Assembly (NCBI RefSeq): GCF_019890935.1
Contig: NZ_CP082333.1
Location: 2,692,001-2,756,000, forward strand
DNA from: Exiguobacterium acetylicum
GTDB taxonomy: Bacteria > Bacillota > Bacilli > Exiguobacteriales > Exiguobacteriaceae
Length of the DNA stretch: 64,000 nt
Reading direction: 5' to 3'
Position numbers and translations under genes: made by a program. Positions within the stretch are counted from its first letter, which is position 1. Every line of letters starts with the position of its first letter. Shown piece by piece: positions 32,651 to 38,919 of the stretch. The notes under the pieces are model-generated. The model was not told where the DNA came from and ran no database searches. It saw only the letters and a program-made list of their open reading frames with translations.

Positions 32651-32691
32651 AAAAAAGGAATCAAAATCAGCTGATTTTGATTCCTTTTTTT
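32649..32691. terminator. Strong bidirectional terminator
   Basis: AGGAATCAAAATCAG and CTGATTTTGATTCCT form a perfect 15-bp stem with A and T tracts on either side. Confidence 0.95.
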
Positions 32692-33001
32692 ATTCCGTTT
32701 GAACAATATGGTCAATGTACAATTGTCCGTCTTCATATGTCGCTTCTAGTAACTGACGAAAAAACGTATTCTCACTTGTTTTCTCGGATACGAATACGCG
32801 TGCGTAGCGCTGATGCGCCTGCGCGAGTACGCTGAATTTCAGGGTACGGACCGGTGAAGAGAAGAACAATTGTCGACCGGGATGCCCAAAGGCGTCCGTT
32901 GCTTTCGATTCTTCTAAGAAGTAAAAAGATTCATCTGGAAACAAGGTCTCAATGAACGATAAACAGCTTTGCTGAAAGGTACTTCCGCTCTGATTTTCCA
33001 T
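32690..33001 (-). CDS. Small hypothetical protein
   Basis: This 103-residue soluble protein has no recognised motif. It begins MENQSGSTFQQSCLSFIETL and appears alpha/beta. It follows the methyltransferase-like gene by 141 nt on the same strand and ends at the strong terminator, so it could be a distal member of the peptide operon or independent. Confidence 0.65.
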   Translation of the reverse strand: MENQSGSTFQQSCLSFIETLFPDESFYFLEESKATDAFGHPGRQLFFSSPVRTLKFSVLAQAHQRYARVFVSEKTSENTFFRQLLEATYEDGQLYIDHIVQTE

Positions 33002-33142
33002 GATGTGTCCGGCTCCTCTTTCTCATGATGTACTTCGAATCGTGAAAAGGAAACTACTCTATCACATTACCCAGTCTTTAGACCTATCCAAACCAGTATA
33101 TTACATATGTTTTTAATTATATCGTTACATTATATTATTCGA

Positions 33143-33880
33143 CTACTGTTTTTCGAATTCCAGTACCAGCATCGTTTTTCCTTCATAAAGAAATTGTCCT
33201 TGATAGCGTGATAACGTCGCAAATTCAAACAGTGTGTTCGGCTCATACAAATATTCAATCGCATAACTGACCTTTTCCTCTTTGCCCGATTTGAGGTAGG
33301 CGTTGAACAATAAACGTTCGCCGTCAACTTGATAGCCATAAAACAGCAACGTCTTTTGAAAACGTCGCGTCGCAATCGGATGCGCCATCGATTTTAGATG
33401 ATCGACATGATATAAGGACACAAGCAGTCGTCCACTTGGTCGTAGCAATTGACGGATGTTTCGAAAGAACAACAGCAACTCCCCACGCGTATAACGTAAA
33501 ATCGTCGTTCCCGGTAAGATGATCCGGTCAAAGTACTCAGGACCGACAACGTCCGTCACATCATGACTCCAGCCGTAAATCTTATGCTGATACTTCTCCG
33601 CAATCTGTTTCGTCCGCGCAGCTTCCGGTTCGATTAGATAAAGATCGTATCCTTCATCCGATAAGAGATTAAAGAGTGATGGATCAAACGTTCCATGAAA
33701 CAGGATCCGCTCCCCTTTTCGTAAATAACGCCGATACAGCATCAGCTCATCGACCTCAGTTAACTGTTGCGCTTCCTGATACAATTGACCGAATCGTTCA
33801 TCCGCCTGAACATGATTCAGCACTTCGACGCGCGAGTAGCTCCCTTTACGCAAGAATGGACCAAATAAGACATCACCCAT
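33143..33880 (-). CDS. Methyltransferase-like protein of the peptide operon
   Basis: This 245-residue protein has the layout of a class I SAM-dependent methyltransferase. It has a strand and loop (RILFHGTFDPSLFNLL) where motif I should be, an acidic strand end LYLIEPEA, then YFDRIILPGTTILRYT and LLRPSGRLLVSLYHVD. Motif I lacks the usual GxGxG, so binding may be altered or lost. It overlaps the upstream gene by 8 nt, implying coupled expression and a joint role, possibly in maturing the 48-residue peptide. Function is inference. Confidence 0.65.
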   Translation of the reverse strand: MGDVLFGPFLRKGSYSRVEVLNHVQADERFGQLYQEAQQLTEVDELMLYRRYLRKGERILFHGTFDPSLFNLLSDEGYDLYLIEPEAARTKQIAEKYQHKIYGWSHDVTDVVGPEYFDRIILPGTTILRYTRGELLLFFRNIRQLLRPSGRLLVSLYHVDHLKSMAHPIATRRFQKTLLFYGYQVDGERLLFNAYLKSGKEEKVSYAIEYLYEPNTLFEFATLSRYQGQFLYEGKTMLVLEFEKQ

Positions 33881-35078
33881 GATACATCAACTCCTTGTAA
33901 TGCTGAATCGCTTCTGCATAATCTGCGCCGAGTCGCTCCGGTAATACGTCGAACTGTTCTTTTTGATCCGCTTCGAGAATCCAGAGAAATGCTTCGTTCG
34001 TCTCAAATAGACGCAACGTCGTCCGGTCGAACGCAAAACAACCTTCCTCGTTTTGAATGCCGATCAACGTCAACGGTCCGATTCGCCCGGACGTCCGAGG
34101 CAATTCGAGATCAGAGTACGGTGTGATGAAACGGCTCGTTCCTTGAAACGTTCCAGCTAGTTGATACAGCAACGGAAACAGCTCTAATTCAGTTTGTGAT
34201 GCCAGCGCGTCAGGTTGAGGTTGCTGTTCTCGGAAAGACTCGATATCAACGGATAGGTCTGCACTTAACTGAATCGTCTTCTGTCGATCGGCGTAAATCC
34301 CGTCCGCAAAGAAGAACAGTCGATGCGAGACGCGTAATCCACTTAACGTCGCATAATCAAGGATCCCTATCGATTGATCGTTTTGAATCCGCCCCGTTTG
34401 TTGCCAGTCCACTAATCGCTCTGCTAGCGCGTCACGCGATAAGACCGTTAGTTGCGAATTAAGCGAGGGAGAAAGACGATCGGAAAACGTCAACAGAATC
34501 GGTGTCCGGCTCATCAGTTCGATGATCGGTAAATCGTGACGCATCGGATGATCGAAATAGATGACACTATTGATCGTCATCGCCTGGAAATTGCTTGCCG
34601 GAATCTTCTCCAGTAATGAGCTGTCTTCGATGTAGACATGACGCAACGGTTGCGGATGATGTGGCACCGACGCTGGGTACACACCTGTCATCAATGAGAG
34701 GAGCGCATGATGGACAGCTGGAACGGATGCAGAAGCAGGCATGTCTTCCTGCGGTAAGAAGAGACCATTCAGGAAATCCGGTTGTCCAAACAGGACTTCT
34801 CCATTTGGACGAATCAAGTGGAACTGAACATGCAACATCTCGTGTTGCAAATACGCGACGAGTCGTAACGTCCGTTCGCCTTCCCCTTGGAGGACGAAGA
34901 CGTAATGCTCATACTCCTGAAAATCCATATAATCGAGTAAATCATGGAACGTATGTGTGTCGTAATCAAACGCGTCGAGCGAAATACGGTGCGTCTCACA
35001 AAACGTTTGCAGATCAAGCGATGGTAGAGAACGTTGCAGCCAGCCGTCTTGTTCCGATAAAAGCGATAATCCGATCAT
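33873..35078 (-). CDS. Unknown protein with PqqD-like C-terminus
   Basis: This 401-residue protein has no membrane segments and no motif I can name in its first 330 residues. The last about 60 residues (CFAFDRTTLRLFETNEAFLW, ILEAD, then a helical tail) resemble PqqD/RRE domains that grip RiPP leader peptides. AAGGAGAGAGG precedes the ATG. It sits between a small peptide gene and a methyltransferase-like gene, an arrangement typical of peptide-modification loci. The RRE resemblance is judged by eye. Confidence 0.6.
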   Translation of the reverse strand: MIGLSLLSEQDGWLQRSLPSLDLQTFCETHRISLDAFDYDTHTFHDLLDYMDFQEYEHYVFVLQGEGERTLRLVAYLQHEMLHVQFHLIRPNGEVLFGQPDFLNGLFLPQEDMPASASVPAVHHALLSLMTGVYPASVPHHPQPLRHVYIEDSSLLEKIPASNFQAMTINSVIYFDHPMRHDLPIIELMSRTPILLTFSDRLSPSLNSQLTVLSRDALAERLVDWQQTGRIQNDQSIGILDYATLSGLRVSHRLFFFADGIYADRQKTIQLSADLSVDIESFREQQPQPDALASQTELELFPLLYQLAGTFQGTSRFITPYSDLELPRTSGRIGPLTLIGIQNEEGCFAFDRTTLRLFETNEAFLWILEADQKEQFDVLPERLGADYAEAIQHYKELMYHG

Positions 35079-35106
35079 GTCCTCTCTCCTTTCTCATCAA
35101 ATGATT

Positions 35107-35146
35107 GAAAAAAGGGCTTCATTCTAATAGCCGAATGAAGTCCTTT
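35107..35146 (-). terminator. Terminator/attenuator between peptide gene and maturation gene
   Basis: On the minus strand GGACTTCATTC pairs with GAATGAAGCCC across a 8-nt loop and six T follow. It lies right after the 48-residue peptide gene and before the 401-residue gene. Such leaky terminators often give excess precursor over modifying enzymes. Confidence 0.85.
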
Positions 35147-35154
35147 TGTGTGGA

Positions 35155-35301
35155 TTAAGCCGATTTAACGTTTGCCTTAGGTTTCGTAGCAGTCCGGTCC
35201 ATTTCCCGATGAGCGAGGGGGGCGACGGAGACGGTAGCAGGATTGAGACACCAAGCGCATGAAGTCATGTTACGTCGCGTTTCTTTTAAGATGAGTGTCA
35301 T
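35155..35301 (-). CDS. Candidate precursor peptide with CAWC motif
   Basis: This 48-residue peptide begins MTLILKETRRNM. The centre is TSCAWCLNPATVSVAPLAH, and the tail is basic and polar (KPKANVKSA). Two Cys in a C-x2-C and several Thr/Ser give modifiable residues. AAAGGGG lies 8 nt before the ATG, so translation is likely. It heads an operon with a terminator before the presumed maturation genes and is divergent from the PlcR-type regulator. No exporter is visible. A RiPP precursor is the best guess; it matches no family that I recognise. Confidence 0.6.
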   Translation of the reverse strand: MTLILKETRRNMTSCAWCLNPATVSVAPLAHREMDRTATKPKANVKSA

Positions 35302-35387
35302 GGGTGTACCCCTTTCTGAATCAAGTGAGATGGTCGTTGAAACATTGATACGAAATCGAGTAAATCAGTAGTATCTAGTTTAGTTCG

Positions 35388-35418
35388 CTTCTATAATAGA
35401 AGTTGGTACCCTATACCA
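35388..35418 (+). promoter_or_regulatory. Promoter and palindromes of the PlcR-type regulator gene
   Basis: A perfect TATAAT (35392-35397) is embedded in the palindrome CTTCTATAATAGAAG (35388-35402). TGGTA-N5-TACCA (35404-35418) follows at once. There is no good -35. A palindrome over the -10 suggests repression, perhaps autoregulation. Confidence 0.5.
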
Positions 35419-35448
35419 GTTCAATCTCCACGAAAGGACGAGGAGCCG

Positions 35449-36336
35449 ATGGATCAATTCATGTCACCGCAAATCGGCTTAGCATTACGCCGACTGCGGA
35501 AGAAACATAATCTGACACAAAAGGATTTAGCGAACGGAATTTGCAGTCAAGCAGAGATCAGTAAGATCGAGAGTGGCACACATTCACCGACAGTCGAACT
35601 ATTGTATGCTTTATCAAAGCGATTACAAGTACCCATAACAATGTTTCTTAATGAGAAAAGTTCATTAGAATCATTACGAATCGTTGATGACAAACTTTTA
35701 ACAAAATTTCAAAACAGCGAATACTCTGAAATTCAGGCTGTATCTAAAAAACAATTAAATTCCTTAGATCCTAACAGTGAACTAGCGACACTTTACTCTT
35801 ATTACATGCATCTAAGTTCATTTAGAATAGGTAATATCGATTACCGTACCTGTATTATCGAACTACAACGTTTGGCAGAGAAATGTGTCCAGTACTTTTA
35901 TTCACCTAAAATGATTTTCCGCATAAAATCCGCTATTGCTACGATTTATTATGAAAAAAATCATTTTAACTATGGTTTAAAGGTCTATGAAGAGTTACTC
36001 ACATTTAGTTACGATACAGACGAGATATTAGTAGAAAAAATTCGTTTATTATACAATTTATCGAAAGTACTAGTAGAACTTAAACAAAATGAGAGGGCTC
36101 TAAAACATATCGATGATGGTATCTATCTCAGTATACGCTTCAAGGATATGTCATTACTCGGACAGCTTTATTATCAGAAAGCATATTTAATGGAATATGT
36201 TTCTCCTGAATCACAAGAAGTTACAGATTCATTCGTCAAGGCATATACTATATTCGATATTTTGGGAATGACTGAGTATAAAAATTTAGTAATTAAATTC
36301 CATAAAACGCATCTTTCTCATTCTAGTTTAGTTTAG
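35449..36336 (+). CDS. PlcR-type quorum-sensing regulator (HTH plus TPR)
   Basis: This 295-residue RRNPP-family regulator has an XRE-type helix-turn-helix at residues about 8-62 (ALRRLRKKHNLTQKDLAN, then CSQAEISKIESGTHSPT). Five or so TPR repeats run to the C-terminus. It parallels Bacillus cereus PlcR (285 residues) throughout: SQAEISKIESG matches SQSEVSRIESG, LLGQLYYQK matches LIGQLYYQR, and AYTIFDILGMTEYK matches ASFFFDILEMHAYK (recalled sequence). PlcR is activated by an imported PapR peptide and binds palindromic boxes. GAGGAG precedes the ATG. The convergent pheromone gene ends 15 nt downstream. The gene is AT-rich compared with its surroundings. Confidence 0.9.
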   Translation: MDQFMSPQIGLALRRLRKKHNLTQKDLANGICSQAEISKIESGTHSPTVELLYALSKRLQVPITMFLNEKSSLESLRIVDDKLLTKFQNSEYSEIQAVSKKQLNSLDPNSELATLYSYYMHLSSFRIGNIDYRTCIIELQRLAEKCVQYFYSPKMIFRIKSAIATIYYEKNHFNYGLKVYEELLTFSYDTDEILVEKIRLLYNLSKVLVELKQNERALKHIDDGIYLSIRFKDMSLLGQLYYQKAYLMEYVSPESQEVTDSFVKAYTIFDILGMTEYKNLVIKFHKTHLSHSSLV

Positions 36337-36351
36337 TTAGATCAAACTGAG

Positions 36352-36690
36352 TTAAGCTTTGTCGAATACCAAGTATTCTGGCGGAAGATGTCCTGCTACA
36401 TTCTTAACTGAGTACTCTGGCGGAAGATGCCCTGCTACATTCTTAACTGAATACTCTGGTGGAAGATGTCCTGCTACATCCTTAACCGAGTATTCTGGTG
36501 GAAGATGTCCTGCTACATTCTTAACTGAGTATTCTGGTGGAAGATGTCCTGCTGCTACATTCTTAACTGAGTACTCTGGTGGAAGATGTCCTGCGGTAAT
36601 TTGTGAGGCATTGTTTGATACTGACACACCAAGTCCTAATACTAATAAAGCACTTGTGCTAGCTACGACTAATTTATTTTTCAAGTTCAT
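36352..36690 (-). CDS. Secreted precursor of a PapR-like pheromone, six repeats
   Basis: This 112-residue protein has a signal peptide (MNLKNK, then a hydrophobic stretch to about residue 26, then SNNAS). After it come six copies of AGHLPPEY. Five are joined by SVKNV or SVKDV linkers (one with an extra Ala) and the last ends LVFDKA. The core LPPEY resembles the LPFEF/LPFEY end of PapR peptides, the activators of PlcR. Secretion, processing in the linkers and re-import would yield several pheromones per precursor, as in yeast alpha factor. GGAGG lies 8 nt before the ATG. The PlcR-type gene is convergent and adjacent. Confidence 0.88.
   Translation of the reverse strand: MNLKNKLVVASTSALLVLGLGVSVSNNASQITAGHLPPEYSVKNVAAGHLPPEYSVKNVAGHLPPEYSVKDVAGHLPPEYSVKNVAGHLPPEYSVKNVAGHLPPEYLVFDKA
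36374..36595 (-). repeat. Tandem 39-bp repeat array encoding the pheromone units
   Basis: Six units of 39 bp encode a 13-residue period, with one 3-bp insertion (an extra GCT-type Ala codon) between units one and two of the protein. Synonymous differences between units show the array is not a recent exact amplification. It is coding and is not a CRISPR array. Confidence 0.95.
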
Positions 36691-36734: not shown

Positions 36735-36775
36735 CATATAACCTTAGACCCCCTCTGAATATTCGAATACGAATA
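36735..36775 (-). promoter_or_regulatory. Promoter with palindromic operator of the pheromone gene
   Basis: On the minus strand a TATATG -10 (36735-36740) lacks a consensus -35. The expected -35 position overlaps the end of a perfect palindrome TATTCGAATACGAATA (36760-36775, arms TATTCG and CGAATA). The layout suits an activator such as the neighbouring PlcR-type protein, whose relatives bind 16-18 bp palindromes. Confidence 0.5.
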
Positions 36776-36806
36776 ATTATGGTATTTTACACATTATTTT
36801 CACTTT

Positions 36807-37965: not shown

Positions 37966-38919
37966 TTAAAAGAACTTCAAGATCGCGTCGCTGAGGTTCG
38001 TCAAAGACGGTGTCTCGTCAATGACCATCAAACTGCCTGCTGCGAGGACGATGAGACCAAGACCCGACAAAATCCAACCTGGATGCTTGACCGTGTCCGC
38101 TGAATCCGCGTTCTCTTTACCCGACCGCGCATTTGCTGCTTGTTCTTTCAAGCGATCGCGACGGTATTGATGTTGTTCCTCTTTCGACCACTTCTTATAT
38201 TCAGCGAGGAACTTCTTATACTCCGGCAAGACATCCTTCGTCGTTCCGTCGAGGCGGACTTGACCGTACTCGAGCCAGACGACCCGCTCACAGAAGCTCT
38301 TGATTTGCGAGAGCGAGTGACTGACGAAGATGATTGTCTTGCCTTCTTCCTTGAATTCGTTCATCTTATCGATACAGCGGTTATAGAAGGTTTGGTCCCC
38401 GACCGATAACGCTTCATCGACGATCAGGATGTCAGCGTCGACATTGACCGCGATCGCGAAGCCGAGACGCGACTTCATCCCACTCGAGTACTTCTTGATC
38501 GGCTGATCAATAAAGTCACCGATATCAGCGAAATCGATGATGCCGGGCATCCGACGTTCGATTTCCGCATCGTCCATCCCGAGCATGAGACACTTCAAGC
38601 GAATGTTCTCACGACCTGTCAGGACGTTCTTTAATCCTTGTGAGACGGCGATGATCGCAACTTCACCATTGATCGCGACGTCTCCTTCATTTGCATAGAT
38701 GATGCCTGAGATCAAGTTCGATAACGTCGATTTACCCGATCCATTGATACCGACGAGTCCGACGACTTCTCCCGATCCAATCTCGAGCGAGACATCGCGT
38801 AGTGCAGTAAATGTTTTAACGCTCTTGCTTTGATTCTTGAACAAGAGCTTGAATTTTTCTTTCGTAGTCGTGACCATGTCGAAGCGTTTCGTGACATGGT
38901 CGAGTTTAATCATAGACAT
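37966..38919 (-). CDS. tagH: Teichoic acid ABC exporter ATP-binding protein TagH
   Basis: This 317-residue ATPase subunit drives export of wall teichoic acid or a similar polymer with TagG. Walker A is GINGSGKST (near residue 58), the signature is KYSSGMKSRLGFA, and Walker B is DILIVDEALSVGD. A C-terminal extension carries a basic helical region and a single membrane helix (about 285-303), shorter than in B. subtilis TagH. It lies 15 nt downstream of tagG. Confidence 0.94.
   Translation of the reverse strand: MSMIKLDHVTKRFDMVTTTKEKFKLLFKNQSKSVKTFTALRDVSLEIGSGEVVGLVGINGSGKSTLSNLISGIIYANEGDVAINGEVAIIAVSQGLKNVLTGRENIRLKCLMLGMDDAEIERRMPGIIDFADIGDFIDQPIKKYSSGMKSRLGFAIAVNVDADILIVDEALSVGDQTFYNRCIDKMNEFKEEGKTIIFVSHSLSQIKSFCERVVWLEYGQVRLDGTTKDVLPEYKKFLAEYKKWSKEEQHQYRRDRLKEQAANARSGKENADSADTVKHPGWILSGLGLIVLAAGSLMVIDETPSLTNLSDAILKFF

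Follow-up and report, generated by a model that had tools for sequence, protein, structure and literature searches.

Daptide clusters have been described as multi-enzyme pathways for membrane-active peptides. Their gene set comprises an RRE-bearing protein of unknown function, an oxidative decarboxylase, an aminotransferase, a methyltransferase and an RRE-peptidase, the oxidoreductase being of the SDR type in the clusters of Bacillota (PMC10036551). In published DapB proteins, the RRE is found at the C-terminus. The class is further characterized by a dimethylated amine at the former C-terminus and by precursors with an invariant C-terminal Thr and a hydrophobic core.

Here, a three-gene operon of Exiguobacterium acetylicum is described, which lies in a window of 64,000 nucleotides (contig NZ_CP082333.1, positions 2,692,001 to 2,756,000) and encodes a precursor-like peptide (pep48), an RRE-like protein (P401) and a methyltransferase relative (MT245). 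The operon resembles daptide clusters, such as the mpa cluster of Microbacterium paraoxydans and those of Bacillota (PMC10036551), in that an RRE-bearing protein is encoded next to a methyltransferase and the leader motif of the precursor is conserved. It differs from them in having one precursor, which is devoid of the C-terminal Thr and hydrophobic core, in being without oxidoreductase, aminotransferase, M50 protease and exporter, in the missing GxGxG of its methyltransferase relative, and in being chromosomal and fixed in the genus. It is quite probable that the operon descends from a daptide cluster of the Bacillota type and that Exiguobacterium has retained it, in a reduced form, for another role that is still under selection, in which binding of the leader by P401 and the partnership with MT245 would take place, most likely, inside the cell. 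A previous sequence-only reading of this DNA had recognized a RiPP-like layout, but considered that no known RiPP class was evident; this view no longer holds, relatives of P401 and MT245 being found in daptide-type clusters, both on plasmids (Priestia, Weissella and S. epidermidis) and in the genome of one further member of the Bacilli.

The operon seems to have been overlooked by standard RiPP mining, since a survey called RiPPs rare in the family (PMC8143284). Among the article texts searched, none named both Exiguobacterium and daptides; an Exiguobacterium entry in the supplement of the daptide study is possible.

Organization of the operon and its conservation in the genus

All parts of the operon were located on the minus strand (table 1), in the order pep48, T-tailed hairpin, P401 and MT245. 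The 8-nt overlap of the P401 and MT245 genes noticed in the window recurs across the genus, the start of MT245 overlapping the end of P401 in all 19 genomes. The hairpin that had been reported after the peptide gene is also real: it folds with -16.4 kcal/mol (z -6.1) and has counterparts in relatives, where a T-tailed hairpin is likewise found just 5′ of P401 and, in three other lineages including E. flavidum, folds in spite of a different sequence (z -4.4 to -5.5). As a likely leaky terminator, it would keep pep48 in excess over its partner proteins. No family was returned by an Rfam scan of the locus. After MT245, in 19/19 genomes, a 103-aa gene without a Pfam family is found (window 32690-33100); it is preceded by a sigma-B-like pattern (GTTT...GGGTAA, recognized by eye), and is probably a unit separate from the operon.

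Table 1. Features of the operon and of the adjacent regulatory system, in window coordinates.
Feature	Position	Strand	Basis
pep48, divergent daptide-type precursor peptide, 48 aa	35155..35301	-	19/19 genus genomes; FKE-type leader and Trp common to Priestia/Weissella daptide-cluster precursors
pep48 leader motif, residues 1-7, MTLILKE	35281..35301	-	aligns with FKE of daptide-cluster precursors
pep48 invariant W17-C18	35248..35253	-	19/19 sequences
T-tailed hairpin, likely leaky terminator, between pep48 and P401	35117..35140	-	scan; folding z; counterparts in relatives
P401, DapB-type protein with C-terminal RRE-like domain, 401 aa	33873..35078	-	full-length Priestia homology; 19/19
P401 RRE-like C-terminal domain, residues 333-401	33876..34082	-	predicted structure compared with lasso B1 RREs
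MT245, DapM-type methyltransferase relative, 245 aa	33143..33880	-	Priestia cluster homology; 19/19
MT245 degenerate SAM-binding motif I, residues 59-70, ILFHGTFDPSLF	33671..33706	-	GxGxG absent 19/19
PlcR-type (RNPP) regulator, neighbour	35449..36336	+	RNPP_C E 1.4e-34; PlcR 2qfc E 1.2e-32
Multi-copy PapR-like pheromone precursor, neighbour	36352..36690	-	six AGHLPPEY-type repeats after signal-like N-terminus
Palindrome AATATTCG-N4-CGAATATT, likely regulator operator, upstream of pheromone gene	36758..36777	.	invariant at this place across the genus

Conservation was assessed in a sample of one genome per species, which included 19 genomes of the genus Exiguobacterium and 19 of its sister genus, and in a plasmid collection. 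The three genes are syntenic in all 19 Exiguobacterium genomes, with constant order and place, and the peptide frame is itself conserved at the syntenic position in each of them. P401 and MT245 are found in none of the 19 sister-genus genomes; a P401 profile built from Exiguobacterium has no match in about 360 other sampled Bacilli, and a broadened one retrieves a single further genome (G304, other Bacilli), where the match falls within a daptide-type cluster. Viral contigs held no relatives.

Comparisons among close species gave pN/pS values of 0.05-0.09 (P401 and MT245) and 0-0.33 (pep48), the latter reaching 0-0.54 when sequences of the whole genus are compared with the window copy. These ratios indicate that all three genes are under purifying selection, and this selection shows that the operon is still functional. 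That it is instead a decaying, functionless remnant of a daptide cluster could be argued from the loss of most pathway genes and of the C-terminal Thr of the precursor, but the integrity of all three genes in 19/19 genomes and their strong constraint make this reading extremely improbable.

The precursor-like peptide pep48

Across the genus, pep48 retains M1, E7, S14, W17, C18, N20, V26-A27-P28-L29, R32 and M34. The C-x2-C core initially proposed for the peptide is confirmed for its second Cys, invariant in 19/19 sequences, but not for the first, position 15 being Cys, Tyr or Ser, so that only W17-C18 is invariant in this region. The peptide takes the forms MNLTFKESRR..SCGWC or MTLILKETRR..SCAWC, followed by a conserved polar core and a basic tail; it ends with A or S (R in E. 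flavidum), and both a C-terminal Thr and a hydrophobic core are absent.

The leader motif M..[LFIV]x[FL]KE is present in 18 of the 19 pep48 sequences, as compared with 0.055% of shuffles. Small ORFs of the Priestia and Weissella clusters follow the pattern M..[LF]xFKE....LN...W...(hydrophobic)...T, and one of those of Priestia contains NCGWC; the FKE-type leader motif and the Trp are common to pep48 and these precursors of Bacillota daptide clusters. When pep48 was used alone as the query, no credible relative was found among plasmids.

Synonymous changes are fewer in pep48 than in P401 (Fisher p 2e-5 to 3e-7 in three comparisons) and, therefore, codon bias or a constraint at the nucleotide level appears to act on the peptide gene. 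Compared with neighbouring genes, window positions 35155-35460, which hold pep48 and the region upstream of it, show unusually high conservation of synonymous and non-coding sites.

In the member that diverges most, E. flavidum, the pep48 stop codon is overlapped by an additional ORF of 59 aa that contains two hydrophobic stretches (L057:8912-9320), and in Priestia a 55-aa ORF with two TM segments stands in a like relation to the second precursor. Position and hydropathy suggest that the two ORFs are homologous; the former looks like an intermediate stage of the reduction, and possibly encodes an immunity-type protein lost in the other species.

P401 and its relatives in daptide-type clusters

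Profile searches with P401 gave no Pfam, NCBIfam or PDB sequence match. Among plasmids, a full-length relative is encoded on those of Priestia, in a daptide-type cluster (33% identity from end to end, E 4e-80), and a partial one on a Weissella plasmid, the latter supported by profile comparison (probability 96%, E 4e-9). The Priestia and Weissella clusters contain small ORFs, the P401 relative, a methyltransferase, a class III aminotransferase, an M50-type protease, an SDR oxidoreductase and an ABC transporter, and are assigned to the daptide type because this gene set matches the published description (PMC10036551); the same set is found on an S. epidermidis plasmid and in genome G304. On the S. 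epidermidis plasmid pHD17-1_1 (L111) and on that of Weissella confusa (L109), the P401 relatives are annotated merely as hypothetical proteins. The NCBIfam daptide_RRE model matches neither P401 nor its Priestia relative, and the identification of P401 as a probable DapB is drawn from homology and gene context. When the P401 profile was compared with proteins of a single daptide cluster (L080), namely the E1-like protein, the long RRE protein and the protease, nothing was returned.

The RRE is a PqqD-like fold with a three-stranded sheet and helices, to which a leader peptide binds. The suggestion that the C-terminus of the 401-residue protein is RRE-like is in keeping with its predicted structure. 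The last 70 residues are modelled with pLDDT mostly of 85-90, and the model of residues 333-401 matches, with modest scores, the RREs of lasso-peptide B1 proteins, namely 6jx3 (VIA Z 4.2, 2.7 A, 69 residues) and TbiB1 (5v1u/5v1v). The domain layout agrees with that of published DapB, the RRE-like part being C-terminal in both. With respect to the B1 proteins, the predicted fold is alike, but in P401 the domain forms the C-terminus of a 401-aa protein and neither a lasso cyclase nor a lasso peptidase is encoded beside it. The model of the whole protein has no confident fold match.

The oxidoreductase and the class III aminotransferase that are present in other daptide-type clusters are not found in any of the 19 Exiguobacterium neighbourhoods, nor are an M50 protease or a cluster exporter; an ABC match does occur at window 38212-38847, but the ATPase concerned is distant and belongs to another system. 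Genome-wide, the M50-type leader protease is also absent from the 19 Exiguobacterium genomes at E 0.01, a threshold to which this absence applies; with this query, the protease is recovered from four other clusters of the daptide type. As for azole RiPPs (TOMM/LAP), their YcaO cyclodehydratase is absent from the same genome, in a search whose controls were matched.

MT245 and the proposed present role of the operon

The presence of a methyltransferase-family protein in the operon, originally judged from likeness, is established by homology of MT245 to the methyltransferase of the Priestia cluster (24% identity over 241 ungapped residues, E 8e-36). A match to the NCBIfam daptide_MTase model was dropped as a clue, and the daptide link of MT245 rests on this direct homology, because the model matches all 399 sampled Bacilli. 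Motif I is E-[IL]-[GA]-x-G-x-G-R in 5/5 methyltransferases of daptide clusters; in the Exiguobacterium proteins it is G-[TNA]-[FL]-[DS]-[PA], itself conserved, and GxGxG is absent in 19/19, while the Glu of motif II and a TT-I segment are retained. The non-canonical motif I would point to loss of methyl transfer, but is not in itself proof that SAM binding has been lost.

Since the precursor is devoid of the C-terminal Thr and of the hydrophobic core, the partner enzymes and the exporter are missing from the locus and the canonical SAM-binding motif of MT245 has been lost, formation of a daptide by the known route is impossible here. General aminotransferases or oxidoreductases encoded elsewhere in the genome could supply the missing steps. 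The operon probably does a different job now, since both the class-defining enzymes and the residue on which they act are absent.

The main competing view is that the operon is an active RiPP pathway, related to that of daptides but new: P401 would present pep48 to MT245, which would methylate the conserved W-C-x-N core by means of an unusual SAM site, and maturation and export would be left to proteases and transporters of general function. The high conservation of the S-x-x-W-C-x-N...VAPL-x-R-x-M core, the RiPP-like layout of precursor, hairpin and coupled enzyme genes, and the possibility that the altered but conserved motif I serves a function speak for such a pathway. It has to be set against the loss of GxGxG throughout the genus, a locus without protease or exporter, and a core that, unlike many bacteriocin cores, is nearly fixed genus-wide, and we regard it as a possible, rather doubtful explanation.

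According to the preferred reading, that of a reduced daptide-type operon with a different role, the C-terminal RRE of P401, a DapB-type protein, would serve to recognize pep48 by its FKE leader, and P401 would act together with MT245, the product of the overlapping gene, presumably in a complex. The absence of a dedicated protease and exporter is the sole ground for placing this action inside the cell, most likely as a pep48-P401-MT245 assembly or as a small peptide product that is not exported. A more specific form, held tentatively and at somewhat less than an even chance, is that of a domesticated RiPP pathway: precursor, RRE protein and pseudo-methyltransferase would make up a conserved, non-secretory complex, whose role, regulatory or structural, does not depend on any natural product.

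The neighbouring PlcR/PapR-like system

The divergent neighbour of the operon encodes a PlcR-type HTH and RNPP_C receptor protein, next to which a gene for a secreted PapR-like peptide is found, as expected for a PlcR-PapR pair. Like PlcR-PapR of the Bacillus cereus group, the system combines a PlcR-homologous regulator, a pheromone with the LPxE[YF] repeat pattern and, at the pheromone gene, a palindrome whose 6-nt arms are separated by 4 nt. It differs in the many pheromone copies per precursor, in having only two strong boxes per genome, and in a receptor part that is highly diversified between close species.

Indeed, the DNA-binding part of the regulator is 82-100% identical across the genus and the remainder, namely the receptor part, 37-57%; pheromone repeats also differ between species. 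In the closest clade, the synonymous sites of the regulator are near saturation (pS 0.62-0.71, against 0.08-0.61 in neighbouring genes). Both the contrast between the two parts of the regulator and its nearly saturated pS suggest that receptor-pheromone (pherotype) alleles have been exchanged.

The palindrome upstream of the pheromone gene is invariant genus-wide, and each genome has one other strong site. This second, perfect copy (G000:C1:1852577-1852596; L100:5078-5097) precedes a 265-aa gene for which Pfam has no family, and is conserved across the genus. The palindrome at the pheromone gene is likely to be the operator of the regulator, and the 265-aa gene is probably its other target. 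Six PlcR-type regulator paralogues are found in tandem (G000:C1:1868899-1874357) about 16-22 kb from the second palindrome, and most other genomes have similar arrays, with two to five matches.

The divergence of the operon from the PlcR-type gene had been taken to suggest control by the pheromone. Under such control, the peptide product would be made at high cell density. The arrangement stands, adjacent and divergent in 19/19 genomes, and the regulator, like P401, is absent from the sister genus; from these two facts, a link between regulator and operon is possible. Control is nevertheless unsupported, because the likely operator is at the pheromone gene and the distal 265-aa gene rather than at the operon: in no genome does the intergenic region between regulator and peptide, upstream of pep48, hold a copy of the palindrome better than shuffles. 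The operon is, therefore, an unlikely target of the pheromone system.

Implications

The pheromone neighbour is a clear example of a receptor that has switched while its DNA-binding domain stayed fixed. The operon itself is a minimal three-gene system in which the non-RRE part of DapB can be probed. That only a precursor, an RRE protein and a methyltransferase relative devoid of its SAM motif are maintained across the genus suggests that the recognition machinery of a RiPP pathway can outlive its chemistry.
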